64,000 nucleotides of DNA. Source: a virus. Position 1 is the stretch's first letter. Each line of letters begins with the position of its first letter. The stretch is from positions 1-64,000 of IMG/VR virus record IMGVR_UViG_3300042383_000523; one strand, written 5' to 3'. A program made the translations under genes and the position numbers. A model generated the notes under the pieces. It was not told the origin of the DNA and ran no database searches. It was given only the letters and a program-made list of their open reading frames with translations. This document shows, one piece after another, positions 7,496 to 57,099 of the stretch.

Positions 7496-7496
7496 T

Positions 7497-8093
7497 ATGG
7501 CATATATAGAAAAAGAATTAGTATTTCAAGAAAGTAAAATATACTTCGCAGACGCTACATCACCTACTGGAGAGAAAGCAGTAATGATGGATTGGGAAGA
7601 TCCTATCATGTATGCTTCGGCACAGTACGTAGCAGAGAATGGAGGAAATATTCTAGAGATAGGATATGGTATGGGAATATCAGCAAATTACATACAATCA
7701 TTCAGACCTACCTCTCATACAGTAGTTGAAATACATCCTGAAATAGCTAGTCAAGCAAGAAGATGGTCAAAGGGAGGAGAAGGAATAACAGTTTTAGAAG
7801 GAGATTGGTATAAGATAAAAAGTCAAATAGAAGAAAGAGGTCCTTATGATGGAATCTTTTACGATGCTTATGGAGATGACAATGAAAAAAAAATAGTAGA
7901 TTTTTGTATATCGATATTAAATAAAGGAGGAAGATTTACCTTATGGAATCCGCTACCTTACCCATTCACAGGTCAGAGGAAAGTTGAAAACGAACAACTT
8001 ACCTACGATATTATAGACCTATCAGGAATAAATGTACCAGATAACGATTACTTTAAACACGACGTTTACTACTTACCAAAAATACAGTTCTAA
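7497..8093 (+). CDS. SAM-dependent methyltransferase, GAMT/RMT2-like
   Basis: 198 residues from the ATG at 7497, two bases after the fibre stop. The sequence VMMDWEDPIMYASAQYV, ILEIGYGMGISA (SAM-binding motif I), VVEIHPEI (acidic end of strand 2) and YDGIFYDAYG match guanidinoacetate methyltransferase and the arginine methyltransferase RMT2 family. The fold is complete for a small class I enzyme. A small-molecule guanidino or an arginine side chain would be the family's usual substrate, but the phage substrate is unknown. Its place among tail-fibre genes suggests a virion protein target. An upstream in-frame start at 7428 overlaps the fibre and is less likely. Confidence 0.8.
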   Translation: MAYIEKELVFQESKIYFADATSPTGEKAVMMDWEDPIMYASAQYVAENGGNILEIGYGMGISANYIQSFRPTSHTVVEIHPEIASQARRWSKGGEGITVLEGDWYKIKSQIEERGPYDGIFYDAYGDDNEKKIVDFCISILNKGGRFTLWNPLPYPFTGQRKVENEQLTYDIIDLSGINVPDNDYFKHDVYYLPKIQF

Positions 8094-14000: not shown

Positions 14001-15237
14001 TAACCCAGGTGAATTATTTACTTGGAATACAAATGTAGGAGTTCCTAATATATCATTATGTAAAGGATGTTATCAAACAGTAAATGGAAATACAGTAACC
14101 GGCTCTTCATCAGGGAATATTAATTTAGGTGAAATTCAACAAGCTGGTGGAGGAATAATAACAATATCAGCTCCATTAAATTACACAACATTAACTTTAA
14201 CATCACCTGGAGGTAATCAGGGTTCAGTATTTAGTATATGCTCAGGAAGTATAATACCACAACCATCTAATGCTTTAGGATGTGTTTATATGAGTAGTTT
14301 TACAACAGGATTAACTTACTTATATAATGTTAATAATAATACATCGTCATCTGTTACTCTTCCTGTAGATCAACAACCAAATCCTAGTATTCAAGCTATT
14401 ACAGATACTCATACTTCTACTAAATATTGGAGAGGTAATAGATGGGGTACTATTAAGGAATGGAATACCACTTCTACACCTAATGTGTTAGCATTAAATA
14501 GAACAATAACAATACAAGGATTCCCGTTTCCATTTGGTAATGATCAAAAACAATGGAATAAAATGCAGGCTATAGATGATAATACATTGTTAGTTTGTGC
14601 AAACTACACTATACCTAATACCCCAGAAAATATATATTTTGGTAATTGGATAAATACTATAACATTATTTGATATAAGCAGCACTACTAATATAGTTGGT
14701 TCTGCTCAACAAACACCATTATTTAACGTTTATGCACCTGCAGGTAATGTAGATGCACTTTTATTAACTACTAATAATAAATTAATAATCATTGGAAGAA
14801 GAGGTAATGGAATTAATCCATTTAATTATAATAATTATTATTTATCTCAATATTCTTATCCTGATGGTGCTTTAGAATTAGAGGTAAGTTTAAATAATTA
14901 TCTTCCCTCTTCAGGAGATGGAGGTACTACATACCTAGTTGCTTTATTTGAATCAGGTAATGGAAAAATTTATGCAAAAGTAGCAGCACAAACTATTGGC
15001 GCACCAAGTATAACATATGAAGTTAATTTAAATTCTCCATATATATTTACTCAAGTTTGGAGTGGTATAGATCAACGAAATTTTTATTTTAATTCATCAA
15101 TTAACTGTAATACAGTAGCATTAAATCCAGCACCACCACCACCATCATTATCACCAACACCAACACCTAGTTTAACACCACCAGTGTCACCTAATGTAGG
15201 AGTTAATACAATTTACAAATATTTAGATATTTTATGA
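11005..15237 (+). CDS. Giant surface protein with FISUMP domain and TPS repeats
   Basis: 1,410 residues. Cysteine-containing modules at the N-terminus (VSFTDCNGN...AFCADDS, about residues 30-75) alternate with long Thr-Pro-Ser repeats (about 90-115, 183-280, 303-422). Residues about 430-630 match a FISUMP domain (IGAQTWTACNLDV, YNWYAVTDPRGLAPVGYHVP, GGGRSNG). The rest is beta-rich with two regions resembling propeller-type blades (SYTWNVNGG, LLTSDNKLIVL and later LLTTNNKLIII). There is no signal peptide, which fits a virion protein rather than an exported one. Location in the neck-tail block makes a decoration fibre or receptor-binding protein likely; function is inferred. Confidence 0.75.
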   Translation: MACKNYNIRIRQVDLDNAINNPDPNLDGKVFVSFTDCNGNPESIAYSIAGTYSNAFCADDSEMIVITYSFEDIEVITANSTVNADGECIAPTPTPSVTPTVSISPTPSTTPLYPCNCISFTNMSLSEEAFVSYTRCDNVSSNILALEPSDSITLCGSDPGVVDGDVVIQILGNCVGRRCIPFTPTPTPSLSITPSFSVTPSNTPSVTPSISITPSRTPSISITPTISPSKTIPPTMTPTPTISVSKTPSLTPLPSVSKTPSVTPSISITPSNGTSPSPTPSTSLPIAIPTIAGLCMNVQFGAAPSVTPSITPTRTPSITPTISVSVTPSITPSTTPSVTPSITPSITPSVTPSSTDPPPPPSLTPSNTPSISVSNTPSLTPSRTPSKTPSISRTPSVTPSVTPSITPSRTPSISITPTPSTSRPCTPCALPDVVIGAQTWTACNLDVTTYRNGDIIPQVTDLTQWENLTTGAWCYYDNNSINGCTYNKLYNWYAVTDPRGLAPVGYHVPTEAEFRTLANYLGGTNVAGGKLKSTGTTLWNSPNAGATNETGWTGLPGGGRSNGQFNSKGISGPYWTSTPDPNPNPGFTNLATYIDLYSFNQLLDFKGFSKTSGYYVRLIKDVPNPLTCNTILYKTQGNQYYLYNFSTNTSTLLNVPAAPFDSVATSLGISIAPLARTSNKLWSYTWNVNGGGLNNNSIVEYNTTSNPFTATINRYIALPQAPESTFPGGTEFYPGTGLFAISNTKLIGTVNRIGGLQLRSIASQQDVVDSPSAKYVNGVMVVEYDITSNVATWTLKVKLPPQEDPAGDLLLTSDNKLIVLTKYQNYHFLNQYNYNTGVLEFRKQISPTITTDCGLAQVNNEIYLMGYNVYKFNPTTFALTLVQSPQTQLVAASQLASCINVNLPTSSCSECLTLPLKLSTPMNYNGINIIPTYTGPVASDNFFPLSTLGMPVCEGTNVTTYPSYSAFLGNLSGDYTYSLNFSQPVNNIKISYGGTNSNPNPGELFTWNTNVGVPNISLCKGCYQTVNGNTVTGSSSGNINLGEIQQAGGGIITISAPLNYTTLTLTSPGGNQGSVFSICSGSIIPQPSNALGCVYMSSFTTGLTYLYNVNNNTSSSVTLPVDQQPNPSIQAITDTHTSTKYWRGNRWGTIKEWNTTSTPNVLALNRTITIQGFPFPFGNDQKQWNKMQAIDDNTLLVCANYTIPNTPENIYFGNWINTITLFDISSTTNIVGSAQQTPLFNVYAPAGNVDALLLTTNNKLIIIGRRGNGINPFNYNNYYLSQYSYPDGALELEVSLNNYLPSSGDGGTTYLVALFESGNGKIYAKVAAQTIGAPSITYEVNLNSPYIFTQVWSGIDQRNFYFNSSINCNTVALNPAPPPPSLSPTPTPSLTPPVSPNVGVNTIYKYLDIL
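11551..11853 (+). repeat. Thr-Pro-Ser repeat tract 1
   Basis: In-frame repeats coding T-P-S-[VI]-[TS] units with variable codons. The variation at third positions shows that the protein sequence, not the DNA, is being kept. Confidence 0.85.
11912..12270 (+). repeat. Thr-Pro-Ser repeat tract 2
   Basis: A second long tract of SITPSVTPS-type units in the same gene, interrupted by a Pro-rich SSTDPPPPP spacer, leading directly into the FISUMP domain. Confidence 0.85.
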
Positions 15238-17902: not shown

Positions 17903-18403
17903 ATGGCTTTATACGGTTCATCTAGAGATATTTCATTTTTTCATGTTATTAACAGAGAGTTAATTCATAACATCATTGAACAAAACATAGGATATTATCA
18001 AATATCACTAGATGAAACCTCTGTAAATGTATATGGTGAAGCAGCTAATGGTACTAAAATGTACTATCCGCCTGTTTTAATTCAATGTTTAATTGACAGA
18101 GGTGATTATGAAGGTGATTATGATGCTCAAATCGGACCTGACTTTACTAGAAATTTTTCATTTAGATTTTTAAGAAGAGATTTAGTTGACCAAAACGTAG
18201 TACCTCAAATAGGTGATGTTGTTTTATGGAATAATGATTATTATGAAGTTAATTTAGTAAACGAAAACCAAGACATAGTAGGTAAAGTACCTCAATACAA
18301 TTATGGAGGGGCTTACTTAGATGATTTTGGAGCAAGTTTTTCAATAATTTGTAATGCACATTATGTATCACCAGAATCATTAGGATTAACTCAAACTAGA
18401 TAA
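17903..18403 (+). CDS. Neck protein, gp14-like
   Basis: 166 residues. SRDISFFHVINRELIHNI followed by a beta-rich core with GDVVLWNNDYYEV resembles head-tail connector proteins of the gp14 type. Its stop codon overlaps the start of the gp15-like gene (TAATG), matching the T4 order 13-14-15. No membrane segments. The match to gp14 rests on gene order and general fold rather than a diagnostic motif. Confidence 0.6.
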   Translation: MALYGSSRDISFFHVINRELIHNIIEQNIGYYQISLDETSVNVYGEAANGTKMYYPPVLIQCLIDRGDYEGDYDAQIGPDFTRNFSFRFLRRDLVDQNVVPQIGDVVLWNNDYYEVNLVNENQDIVGKVPQYNYGGAYLDDFGASFSIICNAHYVSPESLGLTQTR

Positions 18404-20307
18404 TGGCAAATCAATTACCAATATTACCAAATACACCAGCTCGTGCTTTAAATGAATATATAGAACCGTACATACCAGGTACAAAACCTATATTACCTGA
18501 AGATTTAATAACTAGAGCTAGTCAAATATCTGTTGATATTGAAAACGATGTTAAACCATTTTCAATTGGATTACAAGATATTGATGATGCTGTATTCTTT
18601 TACTTTAATAATATTATAAAACCAACAATAGTTCAAAATGGTAATCAAATACCTGTACCTGTTTCTTATGCTTCTGCTGAAAGATGGGTATCTGTTCAAA
18701 AAGATGGGTATTTTAGAGATAAGAATGGAAAAGCAATGCATCCATACATTATTGTAAGAAGAACTGGATTTGAAAAAAATAGAACATTAGCAAATAAATT
18801 AGATGGTAATAATGTAAATAACTTTGCTGTTGCTAGAGCTAGGTATAATTCTCAAAATCAATACACCAATTTTGATGTTTTAAATAACGTAACACCATCT
18901 GAGAAATTCTATTTAACTCCTGTACCAGATTATGTTAATATAACGTACGAATGCGCCATTATTACCAATTTTATTCAAGAAAACAACAAAATCGTCGAAT
19001 CAGTAGAGTTTGCGTCAGATTCGTATTGGGGTGATAAAAATCGTTTTCAATTTAGAACATATATTGATAGATTTGACTCTACAAATGAATATGGTGTGAG
19101 TGATCAACGTATAGCCAAAACAAGTATGAATTTAACACTTTATGGTTATATTATTCCTGACACTATCAATAGAGATATGGCTACAAATGGTAAAAAACAA
19201 TTCTTCTCTAAATCAATTGTTTCCATTACCGCCGAAACTTCAGTTAATGCTGATGGGAGAATAGCAGCTCCTACTGCCCCAAGAGTTAGTCAACCTTTAC
19301 CTAGTGTAATACCAAGTATATCAATTACACCAAGTATATCAATTACGCCTAGTGTAACACCAAGTATAAGTATATCACCTAGTATTACACCAAGTACATC
19401 AATTATACCTAGTATATCTGTAACACCAAGTATTACTCCAAGTATATCAATCACACCTAGTGTAACACCAAGTATAAGTATATCACCTAGTATTACACCA
19501 AGTACATCAATTGTACCTAGTATATCTGTAACACCTAGTGTTACACCAAGTAATACACCAAGTATATCAATTACACCAAGTGTAACGCCTAGTATAACAC
19601 CATCACTAAGTTCAGCACCTACTACTGGGGGTAGTATAGATTTTGGGAATGAATTAGGTAGGTATGCTATTACAAATTTAACAAATAGTAATTATTCATT
19701 AGGATATAATGATTTTACAATTGAATGGTTCCAAAAACTTACTACTTTCGATGATACCCTTAATAATATAACTCCATTTTCTATATACAATTCAGACTTA
19801 GATTTTTTATATTTTACTCTTCAAGATGACGGTGCTCCTAATATAAGGTGTTACATCAACCCAGTGGTAAATGATACATTCCAACAATATGTTTTTGATA
19901 CTAACGTACCTCTTACAACATTATTAGACTGGACTCATATTGCACTTGTTAGAGTAGGAACCTCATTAAAAATATACATTAATGGTACTTTTGCTAACCC
20001 AAGTGATTATACTTTAGGAAATGTAAATTTACAACCATTATTATCAAAATTAATCATTGGAAATACAGGAAGAACTCCGTCAAGTTGGAAATTCCCAGGA
20101 AAAATAACTAACTTTAATTTTGTTAACGGAACTGCCTTATATAACAGTGATTTTACACCACCAACAGCACCATTATCACCATCAGCTAACACTAAATTAT
20201 TGTTATTAGCTACAGATAATGCTGGATTATTAACAGACTCAAGTGGATTGAATATAGTTGTAAATAATATTAATGGGGTAACATGGAGTTCTGATACTCC
20301 TTTTTAA
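18403..20307 (+). CDS. Tail terminator (gp15-like) fused to TPS stalk and LamG-type domain
   Basis: 634 residues. Residues about 60-290 correspond to T4 gp15, the tail terminator: IPVPVSYASAERW, VNITYECAIITNFIQENNKIVESV and TSMNLTLYGYIIPD align with the equivalent T4 segments. Residues about 300-405 are TPS repeats (tract 19300-19612). Residues about 410-630 look like a concanavalin-type LamG/lectin domain (FTIEWFQK, WTHIALVRVGTSLKIYINGT, LIIGNTG). T4 gp15 is only about 270 residues, so the second half is an extra, probably carbohydrate-binding extension exposed at the neck. The fusion reading frame is continuous. Confidence 0.8.
   Translation: MANQLPILPNTPARALNEYIEPYIPGTKPILPEDLITRASQISVDIENDVKPFSIGLQDIDDAVFFYFNNIIKPTIVQNGNQIPVPVSYASAERWVSVQKDGYFRDKNGKAMHPYIIVRRTGFEKNRTLANKLDGNNVNNFAVARARYNSQNQYTNFDVLNNVTPSEKFYLTPVPDYVNITYECAIITNFIQENNKIVESVEFASDSYWGDKNRFQFRTYIDRFDSTNEYGVSDQRIAKTSMNLTLYGYIIPDTINRDMATNGKKQFFSKSIVSITAETSVNADGRIAAPTAPRVSQPLPSVIPSISITPSISITPSVTPSISISPSITPSTSIIPSISVTPSITPSISITPSVTPSISISPSITPSTSIVPSISVTPSVTPSNTPSISITPSVTPSITPSLSSAPTTGGSIDFGNELGRYAITNLTNSNYSLGYNDFTIEWFQKLTTFDDTLNNITPFSIYNSDLDFLYFTLQDDGAPNIRCYINPVVNDTFQQYVFDTNVPLTTLLDWTHIALVRVGTSLKIYINGTFANPSDYTLGNVNLQPLLSKLIIGNTGRTPSSWKFPGKITNFNFVNGTALYNSDFTPPTAPLSPSANTKLLLLATDNAGLLTDSSGLNIVVNNINGVTWSSDTPF
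19300..19612 (+). repeat. Thr-Pro-Ser repeat tract 5
   Basis: In-frame ISITPSVTPSISISPS repeats linking the tail terminator part to the lectin-like part. A higher-order unit of about 100 bases (SISITPSVTPS...STSIxPSISV) is duplicated within it. Confidence 0.85.
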
Positions 20308-45497: not shown

Positions 45498-46391
45498 ATG
45501 CAAAAACAAAAAGACCACGTAGTAGTTTCATTAAGTGGGGGTTTAGATTCAAGCACATTACTATTACGTTGTTTATCAGAGTACAAAAGTGTTACGGCCA
45601 TAAGCTTTGACTATGGTCAAAAGCACAGAGTAGAGCTAGAGAGAGCTCAATCATTAGTAGATTATATTAATTATTGGGAAAACAAAGGTGTAGAAGATGG
45701 ACAAAAACCAAACTATCACCAAGTTAACTATCGTCAAATCCAATTAAACGGATTAGTTGATTTATTAGATTCAGCATTAGTAACAGGAGGTGAAGATGTA
45801 CCAGAAGGCCACTATGCAGAAGATAATATGAAAGCAACAGTTGTTCCTAACAGAAACAAAATATTTGCTTCTATTACTCAAGCAGTAGCTTTATCAGTTG
45901 CAAATCGTACAGGAGAGACTTGTGATATTGCAATGGGTATTCATGCTGGGGATTTTTCGATTTATCCGGATTGTAGAGCTGAATTTAGAGATGCTGATGA
46001 TAATGCTTTCCGTTTAGGAAATTGGGGAGCTGAAAAAGTAGGATATTTTACTCCATATCTTGAAGGTAACAAATTTACAATCTTACAAGATGGAGAATTA
46101 TTATGTGAAGAATTAGGTCTTGAATTTAATGAAGTTTATTCAAGAACTAACACCTCTTACAAACCAATCTGGATTCCGATACCTGAAGAAAACTACACAA
46201 TTATGGGAACTACAACCTATGGAGGAAGATGGTACTCAGATTATAAATCAGCTTCATCAGTTGAAAGAGTAGAAGCATTTATTAAATTAGGAAGACCTGA
46301 TCCAGCTCCTTATGCAGACGAAACAGGACCAGTAACATGGGAACATGTAGTAACAGAAGTAACAAAAGTATTAGATAACCATAACAATTAA
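45498..46391 (+). CDS. queC: 7-cyano-7-deazaguanine synthase (QueC-like), zinc ligands missing
   Basis: 297 residues. VVVSLSGGLDSSTLL is the PP-loop ATP-binding motif of QueC, and FDYGQKHRVE, VPNRNKIFAS and AMGIHAGDFSIYPDCR are its active-site signatures. The enzyme turns 7-carboxy-7-deazaguanine into preQ0. Canonical QueC ends with four zinc-binding Cys; here the matching region (TNTSYKP, then WYSDYKSASSVERVEAF) has Ser or Asp in their place. Longer than E. coli QueC (231). A candidate pseudoknot lies upstream. Confidence 0.85.
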   Translation: MQKQKDHVVVSLSGGLDSSTLLLRCLSEYKSVTAISFDYGQKHRVELERAQSLVDYINYWENKGVEDGQKPNYHQVNYRQIQLNGLVDLLDSALVTGGEDVPEGHYAEDNMKATVVPNRNKIFASITQAVALSVANRTGETCDIAMGIHAGDFSIYPDCRAEFRDADDNAFRLGNWGAEKVGYFTPYLEGNKFTILQDGELLCEELGLEFNEVYSRTNTSYKPIWIPIPEENYTIMGTTTYGGRWYSDYKSASSVERVEAFIKLGRPDPAPYADETGPVTWEHVVTEVTKVLDNHNN

Positions 46392-46910: not shown

Positions 46911-46934
46911 AAAGACCAAGGTTGGTAAAAAAAG

Positions 46935-47018
46935 AATCGGTTGGTGTAATCAGTGTAATGCTGGCAGAGGGTAACACCGCTTCTATGCGGGATGAGGGTT
47001 CGAGTCCCTCACCGATTC
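46935..47018 (+). tRNA. tRNA-like gene with enlarged D arm, isotype uncertain
   Basis: Acceptor AATCGGT (46935-46941) pairs perfectly with ACCGATT (47011-47017). The T arm is perfect (GAGGG-TTCGAGT-CCCTC, 46994-47010). The anticodon hairpin is CCGC-TTCTAT-GCGG (46977-46990), a six-base loop; TCT would suggest Arg, but this is not a standard loop. The D region is about 18 bases too long because GTGTAAT is present twice (46944-46950 and 46953-46959). Without the extra bases a normal D arm (GTGT...ACAC) forms. It may be a duplication-damaged tRNA or an active, modified one. Confidence 0.6.
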
Positions 47019-47026
47019 CAAATTAA

Positions 47027-47040
47027 ACTACTGTTCTTTG
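47027..47040 (+). repeat. 14-base inverted repeat, left copy
   Basis: ACTACTGTTCTTTG. Its exact reverse complement lies at 47408-47421. Together they frame the gene at 47059-47400. Confidence 0.8.
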
Positions 47041-47058
47041 AAATAAAACTTATAAATT

Positions 47059-47400
47059 ATGGAACAAATTTTAGCATTTGTTTTAGGGGTTGGTATAGCT
47101 CTCCTTGGATGGGGAGTTGTGGTAGCGTTTAGAACAGCAAAACAAGTAGCAGCTTTAAAAGCTAATGAAGCAGAAATCACTAATTGGATTTCTAGAAACG
47201 ATGAATTAATAAATCGTAGAATTGATCAAGAAATTGATCGAGTAAATAACCTACATAAAGACAGTATTTCATTTACTGACTCCAGAGTAGATAGATTAGA
47301 ACAAAAACTTTCATCAATTGATAATGATGGATGTAAGCCAGTTAAAAAAATTGACCAAGACGGATGTGAACCCGTTAAAAAGAAATTAATAAAAGGATAA
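47059..47400 (+). CDS. Membrane-anchored coiled-coil protein (113 aa)
   Basis: One N-terminal membrane span (LAFVLGVGIALLGWGVVVAF) is followed by a long charged helix and a tandem short repeat (NDGCKPVKKI, QDGCEPVKKK) at the C-terminus. It is an anchored protein facing the cytoplasm or periplasm. Flanked by a perfect 14-base inverted repeat. No family recognised. Confidence 0.6.
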   Translation: MEQILAFVLGVGIALLGWGVVVAFRTAKQVAALKANEAEITNWISRNDELINRRIDQEIDRVNNLHKDSISFTDSRVDRLEQKLSSIDNDGCKPVKKIDQDGCEPVKKKLIKG

Positions 47401-47407
47401 ATTAACC

Positions 47408-47421
47408 CAAAGAACAGTAGT
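47408..47421 (+). repeat. 14-base inverted repeat, right copy
   Basis: CAAAGAACAGTAGT, the exact reverse complement of 47027-47040, eight bases after the framed gene. Confidence 0.8.
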
Positions 47422-47452
47422 AAAATATTATTAAATTTAAATCAGAGTTATT

Positions 47453-47680
47453 ATGAAAAGAAGAACAAAAACCAAACAATTAAACAGAACAGCTAAATTA
47501 GCGTTCTACATGGCCCGTCAACAAAAAGGTGACAACAACACTTTAGCAGAACAAACAGGATTTACTCCTAGCTTTGTTAGTTATGTTAAAAGAGGAGAAA
47601 GAAAGGTAAATGAAACATTAGCAGCAGCTATGTACAATTTATCTAAAAAAAGAACAAAAAATAGTATTTTAAGCGCATAA
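47453..47680 (+). CDS. Small helix-turn-helix protein (75 aa)
   Basis: KLAFYMARQQKGDNNTLAEQ then TGFTPSFVSYVKRGERKVN fits a Cro/XRE-type helix-turn-helix, with the recognition helix around PSFVSYVKRG. A very basic N-terminus (MKRRTKTKQ) may add DNA contacts. It lies before the exported-protein block, so it could regulate it; target sites are unknown. Confidence 0.65.
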   Translation: MKRRTKTKQLNRTAKLAFYMARQQKGDNNTLAEQTGFTPSFVSYVKRGERKVNETLAAAMYNLSKKRTKNSILSA

Positions 47681-47682
47681 TT

Positions 47683-47865
47683 ATGGGACACCACTTAATT
47701 GATGATGCTTTAGAAAATCAAGAACAATTAGAATTAGTTTCTTATAGTGAAGAATTAGGTATGATTGATTATGTTAAAGTATCATACCATACTATTTTAA
47801 CTACTCCTAACGATGCTGAATTAGGAGAATTAGTGAGAAATACATTACACAAATTGAAAAAATAG
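47683..47865 (+). CDS. Small acidic protein (60 aa)
   Basis: Two bases after the helix-turn-helix gene and probably co-translated with it. Acidic at the start (DDALENQEQLELVSYSEELG), helical at the end. No family recognised. Confidence 0.5.
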   Translation: MGHHLIDDALENQEQLELVSYSEELGMIDYVKVSYHTILTTPNDAELGELVRNTLHKLKK

Positions 47866-47882
47866 ATAAATTTTTATATTTA
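47853..47882 (+). promoter_or_regulatory. Candidate promoter, ATTG - 18 - TATATTTA
   Basis: TATATTTA at 47875-47882, five bases before the ATG at 47888, with ATTG at 47853-47856. The spacer (18) is shorter than in the best promoters, and the leader would be nearly absent. Confidence 0.45.
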
Positions 47883-47887
47883 TCGAT

Positions 47888-48976
47888 ATGAAACTTGGTC
47901 TGCAACATATCAGAAAATGGTTATACCCCCTTATTCTCACTATAGGGGGTATTTTTTTGTCCTATGGACAATCAACATTATGTCCATCAACTGCTACAAG
48001 TTTTGGATATGAATATGTAGCAGGAATCACTATAAACGGAAAGTACTACGCAGGTAATACAGGATTCTCAGGACCAGGATATTATGATTACACAGGAAAT
48101 CCTGTACCTAATATTAATGCTGGTGACGTAATAACAATATCATATACTGCTAGAACTAATGGTGGATATTTGCAATATTTTAAATTTTGGTTTGATTTTA
48201 ACGGTAATGGTGTATTAACCGATCCTGGAGAATTAGTATTAGATCAAAATGCTACTATAAACAATACTACTCAAACATTTAATAGAACATTCACCGTACC
48301 TACAACAGTATTTAATGGTGTGGTATATATGAGGTTTATTATGGTATACTCATCATCTCCTGTTATATGTGGTAATTATTCATATGGAAATACTTTTGAT
48401 TTTAAAACAACAATTACAGGAGCTGTAGATCCTTTCAACTGCTCTGGGTATGTTTACAACAGTGAGGAACAAGGAATTGCAAATATACCTATAAAATTAC
48501 ATTATAAGTTAACTAGTGCATCAACATATACTTTGCTTGGAACATACAATACAGATGCTAATGGTAGGTACGTAATAATAACTAACCTAAACGCTAACTC
48601 ATATAATTTTAGATTAGTATTAGACCCAATAACAGTAAATAATCCTACCTTTTCTAGTATAGTTTCATTTAACCAAAAAATACTAAATCAATCTTTTAAC
48701 TCTAGAGATTTTTATAGATTAGATGTAAATGAAAATAATATGTTTACTGTAAGTGATTTATATTTAATTAACAGAAAAATAATAGGATCATTATCAAATT
48801 GGAGTAACAGTCAACCTAACTACAGAATATTCCCAGCAACACAGTGGTCTGATATAAGAAATTCAACATTAAACCTAAAAATACAATATCCCGGAGCATT
48901 AAATGCAACCATTGATAATGTACAGAATGGACAACAAAATAATTTTTATATAATAAGAACTGGATATAGTAATTAA
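47888..48976 (+). CDS. Exported GEVED-domain protein with dockerin-like C-terminus
   Basis: 362 residues. A signal peptide (WLYPLILTIGGIFLSYG, cleavage probably after SYGQS) is followed by a GEVED domain (about 45-175; VITISYTARTNGG, FWFDFNGNGVL). A CNA-B-like segment lies at about 180-240 (IPIKLHYKL, TDANGRYVI). Residues about 278-300 (DVNENNMFTVSDLYLINRKI) look like a dockerin type I calcium-loop helix. The protein would be exported to the periplasm or surface. A terminator-like hairpin lies inside its signal-peptide codons. Unusual cargo for a phage. Confidence 0.75.
   Translation: MKLGLQHIRKWLYPLILTIGGIFLSYGQSTLCPSTATSFGYEYVAGITINGKYYAGNTGFSGPGYYDYTGNPVPNINAGDVITISYTARTNGGYLQYFKFWFDFNGNGVLTDPGELVLDQNATINNTTQTFNRTFTVPTTVFNGVVYMRFIMVYSSSPVICGNYSYGNTFDFKTTITGAVDPFNCSGYVYNSEEQGIANIPIKLHYKLTSASTYTLLGTYNTDANGRYVIITNLNANSYNFRLVLDPITVNNPTFSSIVSFNQKILNQSFNSRDFYRLDVNENNMFTVSDLYLINRKIIGSLSNWSNSQPNYRIFPATQWSDIRNSTLNLKIQYPGALNATIDNVQNGQQNNFYIIRTGYSN
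47923..47958 (+). terminator. Terminator-like hairpin inside a coding start
   Basis: ATACCCCC (47923-47930) pairs with GGGGGTAT (47945-47952) and is followed by a run of T to 47958. It has the form of an intrinsic terminator but lies 35-70 bases into the ORF that starts at 47888. It may be an attenuator for the exported-protein operon. Confidence 0.65.
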
Positions 48977-48980
48977 TTAT

Positions 48981-48988
48981 TATATTTA
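48981..48988 (+). promoter_or_regulatory. TATATTTA box before the second exported gene
   Basis: TATATTTA at 48981-48988. ACTG at 48959-48962 is a weak upstream box with an 18-base spacer. A small hairpin (GTGT-GAAA-ACAC) lies in the leader at about 49005-49016. Confidence 0.45.
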
Positions 48989-49053
48989 TCTATAGACATG
49001 AAAGTGTGAAAACACCTGGTTTTTGAATTAATAATTACTTAAACAAAAAAGAA

Positions 49054-50142
49054 ATGAAAAAATTACTTTTAGCTTTAAGTTTGGTTTTAGTATCATTAAC
49101 AGGATTCGCACAAACAACAGCACCTGATGCTACTAAGCCTTACTTAATCTTTGACGCTAGTTACAATCTAGCACCTATAGGAGCAACACCTACAAACGTT
49201 GCAATTTATTATGATAATGCTGGTTCTACAGCTACCAAAGCAGTACAGTACAGATTTTGGTACGATAAAAACGTATTTGATGCACCTACAGTAACTTACA
49301 CAGGAGCTGAAACAAACAACTATTTTCAGACATTAGTAAACGCTACTGAAGGAAATGTAACAGTTACGTGGGTTTACACGGGAGCAGATGCATCTTTCAA
49401 TATAGCTGACGGAGCAATGTTCAACGTAGCTTTACCATTTAAAGCCGGTTATACCAATGGAGCTGTAACAGCAATGGCATTTACAGGAGCAACAGCTTAT
49501 CCCGCTTATGGTACTTTAGCAGATGGAACTGATACAACATTAGGATTACAAAATTATGGTGGAGTATTTACAGAACCAGTATTTGAATATGCTGCTACAT
49601 TCTTAAATTCGCCCACTAACCCAGCTGAAAATGTCCCAGTAATATTACAAAAATCACCAAATGGTACTACATGGACTGATATTACAACTGTAAATACAAA
49701 TGCAAGTGGTGTTGCTTCATTTACAACTAACTTAGATCAAAACTACTGGCAAATTAGAGTAAAAGTAGCACCAGGTCTTACAGCACCAGATGCTTTATCT
49801 GCAGCAGATGCTGATATGATGGCTCAAATTGCTACAGGATTACAAACACCAACTGGAACTCAATTCTATACTGCTAACCCTAACCAAGCAAATGGAATAA
49901 CAATTTCAGATTCATATACAGTATTCTCAAGATTAGCTCAAGGTTTATCAACTTACCCAAATACACCTGATTTATTATTCTTTACAGAAGCTCAATACAC
50001 AACAATTGCAGCAGCTACAACAGATCAATCAGCTACAATCCCAGGGGTATCAACATTTACCTCAGCTAATATTAACAATACAACAGCTGCTAATTACTAT
50101 TTATTAGTATTAGGAGACGCAAACGGAACAGGACGTAATTAA
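49054..50142 (+). CDS. Exported protein, cohesin-like N-terminus and dockerin-like tail
   Basis: 362 residues. Signal peptide MKKLLLALSLVLVSLTGFAQ. The N-terminal domain (about 25-180) is beta-rich and resembles cohesin-like folds (VQYRFWYDKNVFDAPTV, TVTWVYTG). A CNA-B-like middle (about 190-245; VPVILQKSPNG) and a C-terminal segment (about 255-305; ITISDSYTVFSRLAQGLSTYP) align with the dockerin-like part of the gene upstream, so the two are paralogues. It would be exported and may bind the partner proteins encoded beside it. Confidence 0.65.
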   Translation: MKKLLLALSLVLVSLTGFAQTTAPDATKPYLIFDASYNLAPIGATPTNVAIYYDNAGSTATKAVQYRFWYDKNVFDAPTVTYTGAETNNYFQTLVNATEGNVTVTWVYTGADASFNIADGAMFNVALPFKAGYTNGAVTAMAFTGATAYPAYGTLADGTDTTLGLQNYGGVFTEPVFEYAATFLNSPTNPAENVPVILQKSPNGTTWTDITTVNTNASGVASFTTNLDQNYWQIRVKVAPGLTAPDALSAADADMMAQIATGLQTPTGTQFYTANPNQANGITISDSYTVFSRLAQGLSTYPNTPDLLFFTEAQYTTIAAATTDQSATIPGVSTFTSANINNTTAANYYLLVLGDANGTGRN

Positions 50143-50143
50143 T

Positions 50144-50875
50144 ATGTTACGCTATATAATCATAGTATTATTATCAATAAATTCACTATATTCTCAGGTA
50201 CAGTTTCAAGTACCTGGGATTACAGTGTCTCCATCTAATACTATTGATTTACCTGTAACAATTCAAACAAATGGAAATGGAGTAGGAAGTTTAGAATTTG
50301 CTTTAAATTATGATCAAAGTATTCTACAATTCTCAGAAATAATATTATCTGAAAAAGCACAAACCTGGCTAACCTATACAATGGATACAGGAAGTGGTAA
50401 AGTAAGATGGGGAGGATATGATAGAACACATGGACAATATACTGTAACAGCCCCAACAGAATTATTCATATTAAAATTTACAGTACTAAATCCTAACTGG
50501 ACTCAAACTCCTATAACAATAGGAAGAAAAACAGCAGGAGATGTACAAGGATGGGACATAGCTGTAACTAATACAGATGGATATGTTAATATGAATAGAA
50601 ATGCTGCTCCTTTAGATGAAGACGGTATTAATGGTAGAGCATATCCTGTGCCTACAAATGATATTGTAACAGTAGATTTATCTCTCCCAGTAAGTGGAGA
50701 TTACAATATAATAATATATGATCTAAATGGTAATGTTTTACAAAATAAAAAACAACGTTTTGTAAAAGGAGATAACTCAATTCAAGAAAATTTACACCCT
50801 TATCCAAGTGGTGTCTATTTATTGCAAATAACAAATGTTAAATTTGTAAAAACATTTAAAATTATAAAAAATTAA
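50144..50875 (+). CDS. Exported cohesin-like protein with type IX sorting domain
   Basis: 243 residues. Signal peptide MLRYIIIVLLSINSLYSQ. Residues about 20-155 fit a cohesin domain (IDLPVTIQTNGNGVGSLEFALN, TELFILKFTVLN). The last 80 residues are a type A C-terminal sorting domain of the type IX system: AYPVPTNDIVTVDLSL, YNIIIYDLNGNVL, and a closing PSGVYLLQITN...KTFKIIKN. Such proteins cross the outer membrane and are attached to the Bacteroidota cell surface. A cohesin next to dockerin-like paralogues suggests a matched pair. Confidence 0.82.
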   Translation: MLRYIIIVLLSINSLYSQVQFQVPGITVSPSNTIDLPVTIQTNGNGVGSLEFALNYDQSILQFSEIILSEKAQTWLTYTMDTGSGKVRWGGYDRTHGQYTVTAPTELFILKFTVLNPNWTQTPITIGRKTAGDVQGWDIAVTNTDGYVNMNRNAAPLDEDGINGRAYPVPTNDIVTVDLSLPVSGDYNIIIYDLNGNVLQNKKQRFVKGDNSIQENLHPYPSGVYLLQITNVKFVKTFKIIKN

Positions 50876-50879
50876 AATT

Positions 50880-51203
50880 ATGTCAGAAGAAACAAACAAT
50901 GACGGTACTTGGTCAGGATTGAAAAAAACAATTATTGGGACATTAACTACAGTAATTGGTGGAGGAGGTATTTGGTTATCAACAACTTTATTTGGAGGTC
51001 ACTCTGAAGATAAAGAAGAACCAAAAACTGAAGTAGCAGCACCTGCTGCGGCGCCTGTTGTTATTAACTTACAAAACAATAACACCAACCAACAAAAACA
51101 ACAATCAAACAATTCAAATTCTAACAACGTTAAGCAACAACCAGCACCTGCTCAAGCGACGCCTGCTCCAGCTAAACCAAAAACAGAAGAAGAACCTTGG
51201 TAA
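50880..51203 (+). CDS. Small membrane protein with Asn/Gln-rich and Pro/Ala-rich tail
   Basis: 107 residues. A membrane span (IIGTLTTVIGGGGIWLSTTLFGG) is followed by an Asn/Gln-rich stretch and a Pro/Ala-rich tail (PAPAQATPAPAKP). Starts five bases after the sorting-domain protein. It resembles linker-bearing energy-coupling or periplasm-spanning proteins but no family is recognised. Overlaps the next gene. Confidence 0.55.
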   Translation: MSEETNNDGTWSGLKKTIIGTLTTVIGGGGIWLSTTLFGGHSEDKEEPKTEVAAPAAAPVVINLQNNNTNQQKQQSNNSNSNNVKQQPAPAQATPAPAKPKTEEEPW

Positions 51204-51907
51204 GATTATTCACAATATTATTTCTAGCTTTCAGTATAGTAGGTTTTTCCCAAAAGGTGGGATCTACTAAAACTGAAGAGTATAAGGCTGATTTTGAGAA
51301 GAAACAGTCTTTAGAAGTTGTATCTGATTACACTGATACTATTCAAATACCAATTCAAATATTAAAGATTGGTATTAATGAAGAGTTATATGAAATGTAT
51401 CCTGAACTAAAAGACAAAAGAGTTGGTTTAGGGGTTTCAAATATTGTATTAGAGTATTTAGAATCAACAAATAGATTTGTATTTACAGAAGAAAGAAATG
51501 AGATAAAACAAAACATGATTGCTCAAGATAAAGCATCAGCAAAAGGAATCTCATCAAATAAAATAGTTGTCAAAGGAAATGTTGTTTTAGCTAGATATTT
51601 TGTATACATTGAAGTATATGATTTCTCAGTTGGAGAAGATGAAGAAATTGCAACTAACGGAATAGAAATAAAACAAAAAACAATAATAGGGTTACAGATA
51701 AGATTTGTGGATGCACAAAGCGGTGAAATAATTACTGGATCAGGTTCCGGTGAAGCGGTTACAGTGAAGAAAGCAAATCTACTAGACGGACTCGACGATA
51801 CAAAATTCAATCAATCAACAATCGGAGTATCTACCAAAAAGTCATTAGAAACTGCTTCTTCAAGAGTAGTAAGTAAAATGATTAAAAAGGGGATATTTCG
51901 TAGTTAA
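51197..51907 (+). CDS. CsgG-like curli secretion channel protein
   Basis: 236 residues, TTG start at 51197 (seven-base overlap with the previous gene); any ATG start would lose the signal peptide MVRLFTILFLAFSIVGFSQK. LGVSNIVLEYLESTNRFVFTEE, SSNKIVVKGNVVLARYFVYIEVYDF and VDAQSGEIITGSGSGEAV match the CsgG/HfaB family, which forms a nonameric outer-membrane channel for unfolded substrates. The lipobox Cys of E. coli CsgG is not visible. Neighbours are an outer-membrane barrel candidate and another exported protein. Confidence 0.75.
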   Translation: MVRLFTILFLAFSIVGFSQKVGSTKTEEYKADFEKKQSLEVVSDYTDTIQIPIQILKIGINEELYEMYPELKDKRVGLGVSNIVLEYLESTNRFVFTEERNEIKQNMIAQDKASAKGISSNKIVVKGNVVLARYFVYIEVYDFSVGEDEEIATNGIEIKQKTIIGLQIRFVDAQSGEIITGSGSGEAVTVKKANLLDGLDDTKFNQSTIGVSTKKSLETASSRVVSKMIKKGIFRS

Positions 51908-53322
51908 TGAAAAAATGGACATTATTATTTTTACTATTATCAACCCTGACTTCTTGGAGTCAGTACACCTATACTTACAAAGACCCTTGCACCCTAGTAT
52001 CAAAAAGTATTTACGTACCAGTTGGTGGAGGAGTAATGGTAAGTTACTTCGACAATCATAGCACTTTTACATCTAATGATTTTTCTTCGGGAGTATTTGA
52101 CAACTGGTTAAATACAATATCTCAACAAAATACAAACTCACCTTGCGAATCTGTAACTACCGCTATTGTAAATGGTATAAATAATATTACAGTAACTAAT
52201 ACTTTAACTATTGTTACAAATGTAATATCTGTTACAAATGTTGCACAATCAATAGCATCTGTAGGTGGATCTATAGGTGATTCTATGACAGCAACAGCAG
52301 GAGGAGTAACAAACTCTTCACAAAATGAAGAAGGCAGTACTAACCAAAACTCAAAAGATGACAAAAAATCAAATAACAATACATCTACAGGAACGAATTC
52401 AGGATCTACTGGAACAGGCTCAACAGGTAACCAAAATCAAGGAGGCCAAACCACTTCTAACCCTTCTGGAGGAACACCTTCACAACCTTCATCAGGAACA
52501 CCTCAACAAGGAGGAGAAACTACAAATCCAAATCAACCAACTTCAACAGGAGGTTCAACGTCTGAGTCATCTGTAGAAGGATCAAGTGGAGGTGGAAGCA
52601 ACTTAGCTAATTCTTTATCAAACGCAGTAGATGGTGGGTCAGCTGATGGTGGAAGTACATCAAGTGGAGGTAAAAAATCTAATGCTGCTACAAAAAATGC
52701 AGGAAGTTTAATAGCTTCTGGAGATATAGTAGCTATTGCCAATACTGATCAAACTCAAAACTTTAGATTTGTAGGAAGTATAACTCATGCTAACACAAAA
52801 GGAACTAGGATTAAAGGAGTATTGTTTAATTACACTTCAGGTGTTGATAATTTAAATGTTACTTTTTATAAATCTTGGATTAACAAATCTAGAAAATTAA
52901 ATACAGTAGGTGCTCAATCCTTCATGATGGATTTCGATAAAAACTTCTTTAGTACAACCACAGTACTAGAATCATATAAAGTAAACAAAAAATTAACAGG
53001 TATGTTTGGTGTAAACTTTACAGCAGGTAAAATGGGAGAAAGATCTTTATTAAATATGTCTGCCATAGGAGGTGCTCATACTACTTTTAAAGTAAATGAT
53101 AGAATTAGTACTAGTCTACTTGTATTAGGAGTATATTCCCCATTTACTCAGTTCTATGAAGGTAAATGGTGGGACGCAGGTATATTAGCTGTACCCTTCA
53201 ATTCCTGGGATATAAAAATAACAAAAACATTTAAATTTAACGTAAGCTTCACTGGGGTGTACCAAGTTGGTGAATCATTCCTTAACTATCAAATACTCAC
53301 AGGAGGTAAATTAAACTTTTAA
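51907..53322 (+). CDS. Outer-membrane beta-barrel-like protein with long Ser/Gly/Thr linker
   Basis: 471 residues. Signal peptide MKKWTLLFLLLSTLTSWSQ. A beta-rich N-terminal part is followed by a low-complexity linker (about 135-260; GSTGTGSTGNQNQGGQTTS, SSVEGSSGGGS). The C-terminal 185 residues have alternating strands (KLTGMFGVNFTAG, WDIKITKTFKFNVSFTGVYQ) and end in LNF, an aromatic C-terminus usual for outer-membrane barrels. It overlaps the CsgG-like stop by one base. Possibly the partner or substrate of the channel. Confidence 0.6.
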   Translation: MKKWTLLFLLLSTLTSWSQYTYTYKDPCTLVSKSIYVPVGGGVMVSYFDNHSTFTSNDFSSGVFDNWLNTISQQNTNSPCESVTTAIVNGINNITVTNTLTIVTNVISVTNVAQSIASVGGSIGDSMTATAGGVTNSSQNEEGSTNQNSKDDKKSNNNTSTGTNSGSTGTGSTGNQNQGGQTTSNPSGGTPSQPSSGTPQQGGETTNPNQPTSTGGSTSESSVEGSSGGGSNLANSLSNAVDGGSADGGSTSSGGKKSNAATKNAGSLIASGDIVAIANTDQTQNFRFVGSITHANTKGTRIKGVLFNYTSGVDNLNVTFYKSWINKSRKLNTVGAQSFMMDFDKNFFSTTTVLESYKVNKKLTGMFGVNFTAGKMGERSLLNMSAIGGAHTTFKVNDRISTSLLVLGVYSPFTQFYEGKWWDAGILAVPFNSWDIKITKTFKFNVSFTGVYQVGESFLNYQILTGGKLNF

Positions 53323-53324
53323 TT

Positions 53325-53762
53325 ATGAAAAAAATAATCTTTATTTTATTATTTCCACTTTTCATGTTTTCACAAGAGTGTTACACTGTTAAAGAAATAA
53401 CTTCAAGTGCTCAAATTGAAGAAATGAGCCAAAAAAGAATTACATTTGGTATTAAACAAATGGCTGAAGAATTAATATCTGACAAATACCCTATATGCCA
53501 AGATGGTAATCCTGTCATTATTGATGTTTATTCTATAGAAGCGCCTTCTAAAGGAATGTCATTAGGACCATTTGCCAGAAGTAAAAAACAAACTATAGTA
53601 AAAATAAAAGTATTGTTAGGTGATAAAGAATTATTAGGTGAAGGATTAGCCGAAACATCAACACAATCTATGTTTTTAGATTTAAATGATGAAAATTTAC
53701 CTTTTAATAAAACATCGTTCGCATCAGCTGTTAAAAAAGCACTAGAATCAGCTTTAAATTAA
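53325..53762 (+). CDS. Small exported protein (145 aa)
   Basis: Signal peptide MKKIIFILLFPLFMFSQ, then a mixed alpha/beta domain (QMAEELISDKYPICQDGNPVI, IVKIKVLLGDKELLGEG). It follows the CsgG-like gene and outer-membrane barrel and resembles small periplasmic accessory subunits in general shape only. It could act like CsgE or CsgF, but no sequence signature supports that. Confidence 0.55.
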   Translation: MKKIIFILLFPLFMFSQECYTVKEITSSAQIEEMSQKRITFGIKQMAEELISDKYPICQDGNPVIIDVYSIEAPSKGMSLGPFARSKKQTIVKIKVLLGDKELLGEGLAETSTQSMFLDLNDENLPFNKTSFASAVKKALESALN

Positions 53763-55214: not shown

Positions 55215-55454
55215 ATGAAACCAATCTTTGTAATCCAAATGCCATTAGGCACTCCTGCTGAGATTTTAGAAAAAGCATACGATCAAGTACATAGTAATGG
55301 TATAAGTGAAGATTATCACGTACTTCTTACTATAGGTAATGATTCAACAGCAACTTTTAAATGCTTTAATTCTTCATATACTAAAGAAGAGTATGCTAAA
55401 TTAGAACAATTAATAAACGAAATAAATAAAGATTATGTCTCTAAAGAGAATTGA
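55215..55454 (+). CDS. Small protein upstream of queE (79 aa)
   Basis: KPIFVIQMPLGTPAEILEKAY is an alpha/beta start with a PLGTP loop; the end is helical. It overlaps queE by 20 bases. A tiny upstream frame (ATG AAA CAA TGA, 55207-55218) shares bases with its start codon. Not recognised. Confidence 0.55.
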   Translation: MKPIFVIQMPLGTPAEILEKAYDQVHSNGISEDYHVLLTIGNDSTATFKCFNSSYTKEEYAKLEQLINEINKDYVSKEN

Positions 55455-56214
55455 AGATTATAACAAAACACTTCCAATTGTAGAGCTTTATACAGCAGTA
55501 CAGTCAGAAGGAAGTAGAGCAGGTTATCCAACAGTAGTAATCAGAACAACAGGTTGTACTCACAGATGTTGGTTCGGAGATGGTGGATGGTGCGATTCTT
55601 GGTATACAAGTATTCATCCTGAAAAAGGACATATTAGTTTCCAAGACATTATTAACATGTACGATAAAAATCCTCACATCACAGAGATGATGCTTACAGG
55701 AGGATCACCCACAATGCACCCTGCATTAGTAAATGAATTAACACATTTTGCACATGAAAGAAATATTTTCATTACAATTGAGACCGAAGGAAGTCATTTT
55801 CTTGAAACAGATTACCCGATTAATCTACTATCAATCTCCCCTAAGTTCAGCAATTCTGTCCCTAAAGTTGGCATTGCAACACCTCAAGGAGACATTACAG
55901 ATGAAAGAATGATTAAACAACATAATAAGTTAAGACTTAATTATGATGCAATTTCTAAATCAATTGCTTACCATTCTGATTATCACTTAAAACCAGTATG
56001 GGATGGTGAAGATCAAGACGCATTAGAAGAAATAATGGGTTGCATTAAAATATTAGATATACCGCAAGACAAAGTATGGTTCATGCCAGCTGGTGATTCA
56101 AGAGAGGCTTTATTTAAATCATACCCTAAAATGTTTGATTGGGTGAGAGATAACGGTTATAGATTGACCTGGAGACCCCATATTATTGCATTTGAAGATC
56201 AAAGAGAAGTATAA
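55435..56214 (+). CDS. queE: 7-carboxy-7-deazaguanine synthase (QueE-like, radical SAM)
   Basis: 259 residues. VQSEGSRAGYPTVVIRTTGC and the following cysteines bind the iron-sulfur cluster; MLTGGSPTMHPALVNEL gives the radical SAM glycine motif, and LETEGSHFLE the usual 'ETEG' segment. It turns 6-carboxy-tetrahydropterin into carboxy-deazaguanine in the preQ0 pathway. The cysteines are spaced C-x3-C-x7-C instead of the usual C-x3-C-x2-C, because of a short GDGGW-type insertion. Overlaps its neighbour on each side. Confidence 0.88.
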   Translation: MSLKRIEDYNKTLPIVELYTAVQSEGSRAGYPTVVIRTTGCTHRCWFGDGGWCDSWYTSIHPEKGHISFQDIINMYDKNPHITEMMLTGGSPTMHPALVNELTHFAHERNIFITIETEGSHFLETDYPINLLSISPKFSNSVPKVGIATPQGDITDERMIKQHNKLRLNYDAISKSIAYHSDYHLKPVWDGEDQDALEEIMGCIKILDIPQDKVWFMPAGDSREALFKSYPKMFDWVRDNGYRLTWRPHIIAFEDQREV

Positions 56215-56417
56215 TGACATTAAGAGAAGCCCATTTAAACGAAATAGATGTACTAAACACCCTATGGTGGATGTTGAGTAATCAAAAAATTAATCTAGGT
56301 GATGTAAAATTTCATGCCCAAAGTTTGGATCTTGAAATAGAATTTATTACATTTGAAGGATATAGATTTACAAATAAAGATAAAACAATTATTTATTCTT
56401 ATGGCAGACAACAATAG
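56214..56417 (+). CDS. Small protein between queE and folE (67 aa)
   Basis: Starts inside the queE stop codon (TAATG) and runs 17 bases into folE. MTLREAHLNEIDVLNTLWWML is helical; the end is beta-type (EIEFITFEGYRFTNKDKTI). Translational coupling is likely. No family recognised. Confidence 0.5.
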   Translation: MTLREAHLNEIDVLNTLWWMLSNQKINLGDVKFHAQSLDLEIEFITFEGYRFTNKDKTIIYSYGRQQ

Positions 56418-57099
56418 AAAGAAAATCCACAACGATTTAGAAGTGGTACAAGTAGGTTTTGCAAATGGTGTTGCACCTGGTTTTCCTTTAACTGATCTTC
56501 AAAAACAGCATATGATTGAAGAGGCAACTGAAGCATACGGCCAGTTTTTAACAGCATTAGGTTGTGATTGGAAAAATGATCCAAACAGTTCTGATACACC
56601 AAGACGTGTAGCTAAAGCATACGTTAATGATTTATGGAAAGGTAGATACACAGAAATGTCTGAAATTACTTCATTCCCATCAGACGGTTATGATGGTATT
56701 ATAATTGAAAGAAACATTCCATTAACTTCAATGTGTTCACATCACCATCAAACAATTGGAGGAGTAGTTCATATTGGTTATATAGCTGGAGAACATGGTC
56801 AAGTAATTGGTTTATCTAAACTAAACAGAATTGTTGAATTATTTGGTCGTAGAGGAGCTATTCAAGAACAATTAACATCAGCTATTCATAACGCTGTAAA
56901 TAAGATTACTGAAGGTAATTTAGGTGTTATTGTTACTATAGTTGGAACTCATAACTGTGTATCTTGTAGAGGTGTTAAACACCAAGGGGCAGCAATGGTT
57001 ACTACTAAAGCATCAGGTGCTTTTAGAGATGATACTAATAATGCTCGTAAAGAGTTCTTTGATTCATTAAAGATTAATAACGGTGGACATAATATCTAA
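56401..57099 (+). CDS. folE: GTP cyclohydrolase I
   Basis: 232 residues from the ATG at 56401 (MADNNRKK); an ATG at 56353 in the same frame overlaps the upstream gene more and is less likely. SDTPRRVAKAYV, TSMCSHHHQTI (zinc Cys and His), GLSKLNRIVELF and CVSCRGVKHQGA are the family's catalytic and zinc motifs. It opens GTP to dihydroneopterin triphosphate, the first step to preQ0. It is followed within four bases by a phosphoribosyltransferase. Confidence 0.93.
   Translation: MADNNRKKIHNDLEVVQVGFANGVAPGFPLTDLQKQHMIEEATEAYGQFLTALGCDWKNDPNSSDTPRRVAKAYVNDLWKGRYTEMSEITSFPSDGYDGIIIERNIPLTSMCSHHHQTIGGVVHIGYIAGEHGQVIGLSKLNRIVELFGRRGAIQEQLTSAIHNAVNKITEGNLGVIVTIVGTHNCVSCRGVKHQGAAMVTTKASGAFRDDTNNARKEFFDSLKINNGGHNI

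Follow-up and report, generated by a model that had tools for sequence, protein, structure and literature searches.

Can a phage build a scaffold of its own on the outside of a cell that is doomed? Three adjacent genes in the virus record IMGVR_UViG_3300042383_000523 of IMG/VR raise this question. We analysed positions 1 to 64,000 of the record (105,756 bases in total) and call this 64,000-nucleotide stretch the window. The genes, here P1, P2 and P3, lie where an earlier note on this DNA had put them, as open reading frames (ORFs) of 362, 362 and 243 amino acids (aa; Table 1). The DNA is that of a phage, as the note had assumed: genes for a tail sheath, a holin and an endolysin are present, and the record has a cultured relative, Flavobacterium phage immuto (NC_055915), which infects Flavobacterium sp. 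LMO8. On balance, sequence comparison and structure prediction lead us to favour a phage-encoded scaffold of P1, P2 and P3 on the infected cell. It would use the Sec pathway and the type IX secretion system (T9SS) of the host, carry exchangeable, mostly lectin-type heads and serve adhesion. The domain architecture of the three proteins is well supported. From it we infer the pairing of cohesins with dockerins, the export route of P1 and P2, the role of three neighbouring genes (g5 to g7), the surface display and the purpose.

P3 joins a cohesin to a T9SS type A sorting tail, and both domains, proposed earlier by eye, are recovered by profile searches. The cohesin matches Pfam Cohesin (PF00963) at residues 19-129 with E 1.8e-9 and 38.4 bits (cut-off 24.1). 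The tail matches Por_Secre_tail (PF18962) at residues 167-240 with E 4.7e-11, and TIGR04183 with E 3.6e-11. Cargo of the type A route has a C-terminal sorting domain and a Sec signal peptide; P3 has both, its signal peptide being called by a heuristic. In all 13 records searched (the window's record included) the P3 cohesin lies above the Pfam cut-off, and each record has one T9SS tail. The natural reading of these sequences is that a phage-made cohesin would be displayed on a host that has a T9SS. At one related locus (L046, 7951-8361) P3 is shortened to 136 aa, compared to 243 in the window.

P2 had been taken for a dockerin-like protein. It does have the dockerin-like module, but it also has a cohesin of its own, which was overlooked. 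The AlphaFold2 (AF2) model of P2 has a mean predicted local distance difference test score (pLDDT) of 60-90 in blocks of 10 residues over residues 21-170. Compared with the PDB by Foldseek, the model matches the cohesin 1aoh_A (E 5.2e-6), and VIA aligns it to solved cohesins with Z up to 15.1. Of VIA ranks 1-49, 46 are titled cohesin; the other three are two constructs of cellulosomal scaffoldins (ranks 6 and 12) and a GH84 interaction module (rank 48). At rank 50 follows an adhesin domain (Z 9.4). Pfam Cohesin does not match the window copy of P2. It matches nine of the 24 aligned P2 sequences and the P2 of nine of the 13 records (above the cut-off in one, below it in eight). A PDB sequence search with the P2 profile gave nothing or marginal matches only. 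P3 is thus a cohesin protein by Pfam and P2 by fold. Structure prediction, which the earlier note had named as the check on its cohesin and dockerin calls, comes out in two ways: the cohesin fold is found in P2, but the dockerin part of P2 is modelled with pLDDT below 50. Because P2 itself consists of a cohesin and a dockerin-like module, the three proteins can be read as a chain of sockets and plugs.

The C-terminal block that P1 and P2 were said to share is homologous in the two proteins (hhalign probability 97.5, E 5.8e-12), but its identity as a dockerin is the weakest of the domain calls. Pfam dockerin matches two of 21 P1 proteins at E<=0.1, and a PDB sequence search with the profile of the module gave nothing or marginal matches only. 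Of 67 distinct P1 proteins, 64 have the calcium-loop pattern (a regular expression), and the remaining three read DLNND... by eye. In P2 of the phages with separate P2 and P3 genes (the split clade) the loop is degenerate, and 24 of 24 copies fit a permissive pattern.

Much of the domain question is settled by a sister clade in which P2 and P3 are one protein, because this fused family matches the sorting tail, the cohesin and Dockerin_1. The protein appears among the more distant relatives of the g5 search, is about 630 aa long (50 ORFs, 35 distinct) and has the order cohesin, Cna-like domain, dockerin, cohesin, sorting tail. All statements on this clade rest on the best 80 of the 145 relatives from the g5 search and the best 80 of the 309 relatives from a search with the fused family. 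Among 32 fused anchors the sorting tail is matched in 32, the cohesin in 28 and Dockerin_1 in 27 at E<=0.1 (best Dockerin_1 E 7.8e-5), and the calcium-loop pattern occurs in 30. When compared to the PDB, the fused-anchor profile matches the dockerin of the cellulosomal adaptor scaffoldin ScaB (4uyp_B, E 3.5e-4) and, weakly, T9SS tail structures (8glk, E 0.1; 8glj, E 0.17). A dockerin has duplicated calcium-binding segments of loop and helix; P1 and the fused anchors have one clear calcium loop, which is degenerate in split P2, and a second segment is seen by eye only. The fusion is also the best evidence for reading P2 and P3 as proteins that act side by side.

The genes travel together in both clades. 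Searches with P2 and P3 gave 30 and 28 distinct viral loci. P2 and P3 are separate genes at all 30 loci of the P2 search (fused at 0 of 30), where P1 is present at 28, g5 at 28, g6 at 27 and g7 at 26, several loci being cut by contig ends. In the fused-family search 79 of the 80 loci are fused, and the remaining one (L178) is cut by the contig end. Fifty-six of these 80 loci have at least 5.5 kb of downstream sequence (the 24 with short flanks are left out of the count); g5, g6 and P1 are each found at 56 of 56 and g7 at 53. A large number of the contigs come from metagenomes, and there are near-duplicates among them; distinct counts are given where they were made.

A phage nature of the fused clade is supported by two points: its loci come from IMG/VR, and homologues of window genes lie near 85 of 131 loci, mostly the endolysin (79). 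Among annotated phage records, matches occur in four immuto records only. There the operon is gp013-gp019, with gp013 annotated as a C-type lectin, gp015 as a cohesin and gp014 and gp016-gp019 as hypothetical. A long P2-like match in BFVD is A0A6J5M064, a protein of 636 aa from an uncultured Caudovirales that is named for its sorting domain. In a search for a bacterial chromosomal version, the one match among genome contigs lies on a short contig, next to genes that resemble those of phages for replication and ribonucleotide reductase (judged by eye and from synteny). The class- and phylum-level bacterial searches covered three genomes, a scope that does not imply absence from bacteria.

Signal peptides set the operon apart from the rest of the window. 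They had been noted on three consecutive genes. P1, P2 and P3 do pass our heuristic, but the run is longer and comprises six genes within 47888-53762. Counted without overlaps, the plus strand of the window has 68 ORFs with a length of 60 aa or more, and six of them pass: P1, P2, P3, g5, g6 and g7. The calls come from our own hydropathy heuristic, not from SignalP. At the 30 split loci the calls are 23/25 for P1, 28/28 for P2, 30/30 for P3, 28/28 for g5, 26/27 for g6 and 26/26 for g7, compared to 13/205 in the background. At the fused-family loci they are 79/79 for the fused protein, 53/56 for P1, 75/75 for g5, 68/70 for g6, 52/53 for g7 and 78/450 in the background. ORFs truncated at the start of a contig are excluded from these family-wide counts, and internal Met starts are permitted, which raises the background.

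Table 1. Positions of the operon genes and their domains in the window.
Feature	Position (nt)	Strand	Content and basis
P1	47888-48976	+	Signal peptide, exchangeable head, Cna-B-like region, dockerin-like module
P1 head (GEVED in the window)	48176-48406	+	Pfam
P1 dockerin-like module	~48641-48973	+	Loop DVNENNMFTVSD
P2 adaptor	49054-50142	+	Signal peptide, cohesin, transthyretin/Cna-like domain (weak), dockerin-like module
P2 cohesin (residues ~24-177)	49123-49584	+	AF2 model, Foldseek, VIA
P2 dockerin-like module	49768-50139	+	Homologous to that of P1
P3 anchor	50144-50875	+	Signal peptide, cohesin, T9SS type A sorting tail; Pfam/NCBIfam
P3 cohesin	50198-50530		Pfam
P3 sorting tail	50642-50863		Pfam
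g4	50880-51203	+	Small; one apparent membrane helix, Pro/Gln/Asn-rich tail (both by eye)
g5	51197-51907	+	Exported, marginally CsgG-like
g6	51907-53322	+	Exported; low-complexity linker, C-terminal part outer-membrane beta-barrel-like and ending in Phe (by eye)
g7	53325-53762	+	Small exported protein, no known family

What such a scaffold would present differs between phages. The 102 P1 proteins at 101 loci have heads of six classes: C-type lectin (50), C-type lectin with a LamG insert (26), GEVED (9), PA14 (4), a nidogen-like form (10) and a second nidogen-like form (3). The two nidogen-like forms have no Pfam match and are labelled by eye, and the other classes are backed by Pfam. Classes are seed-based (plain clustering joins nearly all P1 proteins through their common Cna-B half), lectin heads with and without LamG count as separate classes, and the lectins include a C-type lectin form that is long and divergent (L099-L101). 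Inclusion required a P1 of 300 aa and an anchor of 330 aa; 80 of the 110 loci from two scans and 21 further loci make up the 101. A C-type lectin head (PF00059) is found in 14 of 21 and in 18 of 25 P1 proteins scanned, and SdrD_B (Cna-B-type) matches in 15 of the 21. The window's own P1 has the GEVED head that the earlier note had recognised (Pfam E 1.8e-11). Of 48 distinct P1 proteins with a C-type lectin head, 47 have the motif EPN...E...WxD, which we take to be a calcium-dependent sugar site of the mannose type.

Heads are exchanged between close relatives. The head class changes at least 24 times on the tree of the anchors (66 distinct combinations; a FastTree tree of the P2 part, with changes counted irrespective of branch support). 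Even between anchors that are 90-99% identical the head class differs in 22 of 44 pairs. The window and its relative L031 capture one such exchange: their DNA is 87.4% identical over 46932-47971 and 90.4% identical over 48940-53337, and does not align between. The head is replaced; P1 retains its signal peptide and the final part of the plug. The window head is 64.6% identical to the head of another relative (L056), though the P2 proteins of the two are only 56% identical. One locus (L041) has two tandem P1 genes at 5642-6910 and 6914-7918, one with a nidogen-like and one with a C-type lectin head.

Directly upstream of the swapped head, within the signal-peptide codons of P1, lies a terminator-like hairpin (47927-47949) followed by TATTTTTTTG, which recurs in P1 genes of the split clade. 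Across an alignment of 18 copies, 17 of which are distinct, 98.5% of the pair cells are paired. Two of the eight pairs are changed on both sides, a number reached in 17 of 500 shuffles. The hairpin may act as an attenuator, mark a boundary of recombination or simply follow from the conservation of the encoded residues.

How would the scaffold be assembled? Sec would carry all six proteins over the inner membrane. P3 would then leave through the host T9SS, which would recognise the type A tail and fix P3 at the surface. The dockerin-like module of P2 would plug into the cohesin of P3, and that of P1 into the cohesin of P2, so that the head is held outward. P1 and P2 have no sorting tail of their own, and for this reason we read g5 to g7 (CsgG-like, outer-membrane-protein-like and small exported, respectively) as putative components that help to export or assemble these two proteins, which is the least certain step of the scheme. 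The infected cell would adhere to neighbouring cells or particles and progeny phages would reach new hosts, an effect termed 'sibling capture' in the pelagiphage papers. We consider adhesion the most likely purpose and masking of a receptor the second choice. A bolder version is less likely than not: a widespread group of Bacteroidota phages may use the host T9SS and a phage-encoded CsgG-like pore to build a cellulosome-like, calcium-dependent fibre of plugs and sockets, swap its heads with the ease seen for tail-fibre tips and so make every infected cell a specific trap in which further hosts are caught.

Several observations weigh against a cohesin-dockerin scaffold. The cohesins of P2 and P3 are distant from each other (hhalign probability 2.2). 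At E<=1, Pfam dockerin does not match the window modules of P1 and P2. Dockerin type I (PF00404) matches weakly in seven of the 13 records and above the cut-off in none, and one of the seven matches is immuto gp079, a protein unrelated to the operon. The P2 loop of the window, NPNQANGITISD, has lost its first Asp, and the low pLDDT of the P2 dockerin part points the same way. Cellulosomes are, besides, not the only place where cohesin- and dockerin-like domains are found. How P1 and P2, which lack a sorting tail, would cross the outer membrane is a guess.

The putative export genes weaken the case further. CsgG (PF03783) is above the cut-off for g5 in one of 13 records (21.0 vs 20.8 bits) and matches five of 33 g5 family members at E<=1 (best E 1.9e-4), a marginal result. 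Unrelated families match more of these 33 members: bact-PGI_C matches ten (best E 0.031) and DUF4467 six (best E 0.0095). The AF2 model of g5 is poor (mean pLDDT 38.5), and for that reason we do not use its Foldseek matches to PelC (E 2.8e-3) and CsgG (E 4.2e-2) as sole evidence. PDB sequence searches with the g5 profile gave no match. The g6 alignment is conserved across relatives, but g6 has no Pfam match, and a Pfam scan of 21 g7 members gave no convincing family. Pfam matches to CsgA, CsgB or CsgF are absent from the ten window proteins scanned and from the 21 g7 members; no dedicated search for them was made. Finally, no clumping was seen during infection by Melnitz, a phage with csgGF (PMC9004378).

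The operon can be explained in other ways. The head might mask the cell's own glycan receptor from further phages (superinfection exclusion), with head types following receptor use. This is unlikely. In its favour, divergence between the window and L031 (P2 92% identical) affects both the P1 head and the proteins of the distal tail, whereas most of the compared DNA is 77-93% identical. That divergence fits adhesion or masking alike, and it comes from a single pair. Defence against superinfection is also among the ideas put forward for phage curli (PMC9599517). Against masking, C-type lectin occurs once per record and solely in P1 (11 of 15 records have a match, with positions compared to those of P1), so the lectin head was not copied from a domain of the tail. 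Likewise P1 holds the sole LamG match in four of the five LamG-headed phages searched; LamG in tail-region proteins is found in the window and in immuto, whose P1 heads belong to other classes. Alternatively, P1 to P3 may be ordinary T9SS cargo, that is, beta-sandwich and EF-hand-like modules taken from the host and secreted separately, with no cohesin-dockerin assembly. The missing Pfam dockerin matches described above speak for this explanation, and Cryophage sets an example with three T9SS-tailed cargo genes, one of them with PA14 (PMC7468147). Against it speak the co-occurrence of cohesins, homologous dockerin-like modules and export-type genes, the fusion of P2 with P3 and the cohesin fold of P2. 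We regard it as improbable, too.

Lectin and Ig-like folds are typically seen in the adhesins of virions. Exported proteins could end up on released particles and help these to stick to cells or matrix, and in the window the operon adjoins the endolysin and holin genes. We find such a decoration of virions hard to believe, given that the signal peptides and the T9SS tail indicate a way out of the cell and that some 25 kb separate the P1-P3 genes from the gene for the tail sheath. One dockerin match was considered as a plug on the virion, the sole match outside the operon in the 13 records. It is immuto gp079 (L154, 6007-8532, 841 aa, near the terminase gene); the match is a single EF-hand-like loop, and we rejected it as a plug. 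The window's record, which may be incomplete, has no match to gp079. Least credible of all is nutrient scavenging, in which a cellulosome on a small scale would bind polysaccharide for use by the infected cell. It would account for the cohesin-dockerin logic and the carbohydrate-type heads, and Cryophage does encode secreted glycoside hydrolases (PMC7468147), but the Pfam families of the 46 P1 proteins scanned (21 + 25) include no enzyme domain.

How does the proposed scaffold compare to known systems? It has the order of a cellulosome: a functional unit that bears a dockerin (P1), an adaptor scaffoldin (P2) and an anchoring scaffoldin (P3), and both the P2 cohesin and the dockerin of the fused clade match solved cellulosomal modules. 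In contrast to a cellulosome it is encoded by a phage, has lectin-type heads instead of enzymes and a T9SS anchor, and there is one cohesin each in P2 and P3. Since no enzyme was found and dockerin binding is a prediction, we do not class the operon as a cellulosome; it may work like one.

The earlier note knew of no described phage system of this kind. Our survey of the open-licence literature (titles and openings of abstracts) found none either, but close precedents exist in T9SS cargo of Cryophage and in phage curli export. Cryophage, a phage of Bacteroidetes, likewise encodes proteins that end in T9SS type A tails; one of them has PA14, and they vary between phages. These are three separate cargo genes, and the words 'cohesin' and 'dockerin' are absent from the main text (PMC7468147). 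Pelagiphages and Melnitz carry curli export genes, for which aggregation, sibling capture, superinfection defence or control of lysis has been proposed (PMC7029224, PMC9599517, PMC9004378). As here, these type VIII secretion genes are co-located in the phage; they encode a CsgG pore and, in some cases, fibre subunits. They differ in being curli parts (CsgG, CsgF and, in some phages, CsgA/B) in place of a cohesin-dockerin scaffold, and in their Proteobacterial hosts; the resemblance to CsgG in our operon is marginal. Immuto, a cultured phage, has the same operon with a C-type lectin as its head. Its record (NC_055915) already names the cohesin and lectin domains, but no system. Phage-encoded surface assemblies are therefore already known, and as far as we have checked it is the cohesin-dockerin architecture that is new in phages.

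If our reading is true, this would be, as far as we have been able to find, the first virus-encoded cohesin-dockerin assembly. It would also be a second answer, after phage curli and chemically different, to the question of why phages devote part of their coding capacity to the exterior of a cell that will soon die. The operon is conserved in viruses of Flavobacterium-like bacteria, and the cells that these infect could become sticky, or shielded from rival viruses. The swappable heads would provide a ready-made collection of binding domains that share one plug and can be exchanged for one another. Because a cultured phage and host (immuto and Flavobacterium sp. LMO8) carry the operon, the question can be tested directly.

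Some features of the region stand apart from these questions. The small gene g4 lies between P3 and g5 at most split-clade loci and has no match in L030, L052 and L053. Roughly 1.2 kb of additional DNA lies between g4 and g5 in L035 (10690-11945) and at several more loci of the split clade; in L035 it holds an 89-aa ORF and a 327-aa Ala-rich ORF. A scan for a promoter pattern of the Bacteroidota type gave five matches (5.7 expected), and a sigma-70 scan gave matches at chance level. LamG and Fib_succ_major domains occur on proteins of the virion region of the window (18403-20307 and 11005-15237), and immuto has three LamG matches at 139.9-142.4 kb. The operon is flanked by a QueC-like gene (45498-46391), whose homologue is the annotated QueC of immuto, and by QueE- and FolE-like genes (by eye; 55435-56214 and 56353-57099). 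Together these genes suggest a 7-deazaguanine modification of the phage DNA.

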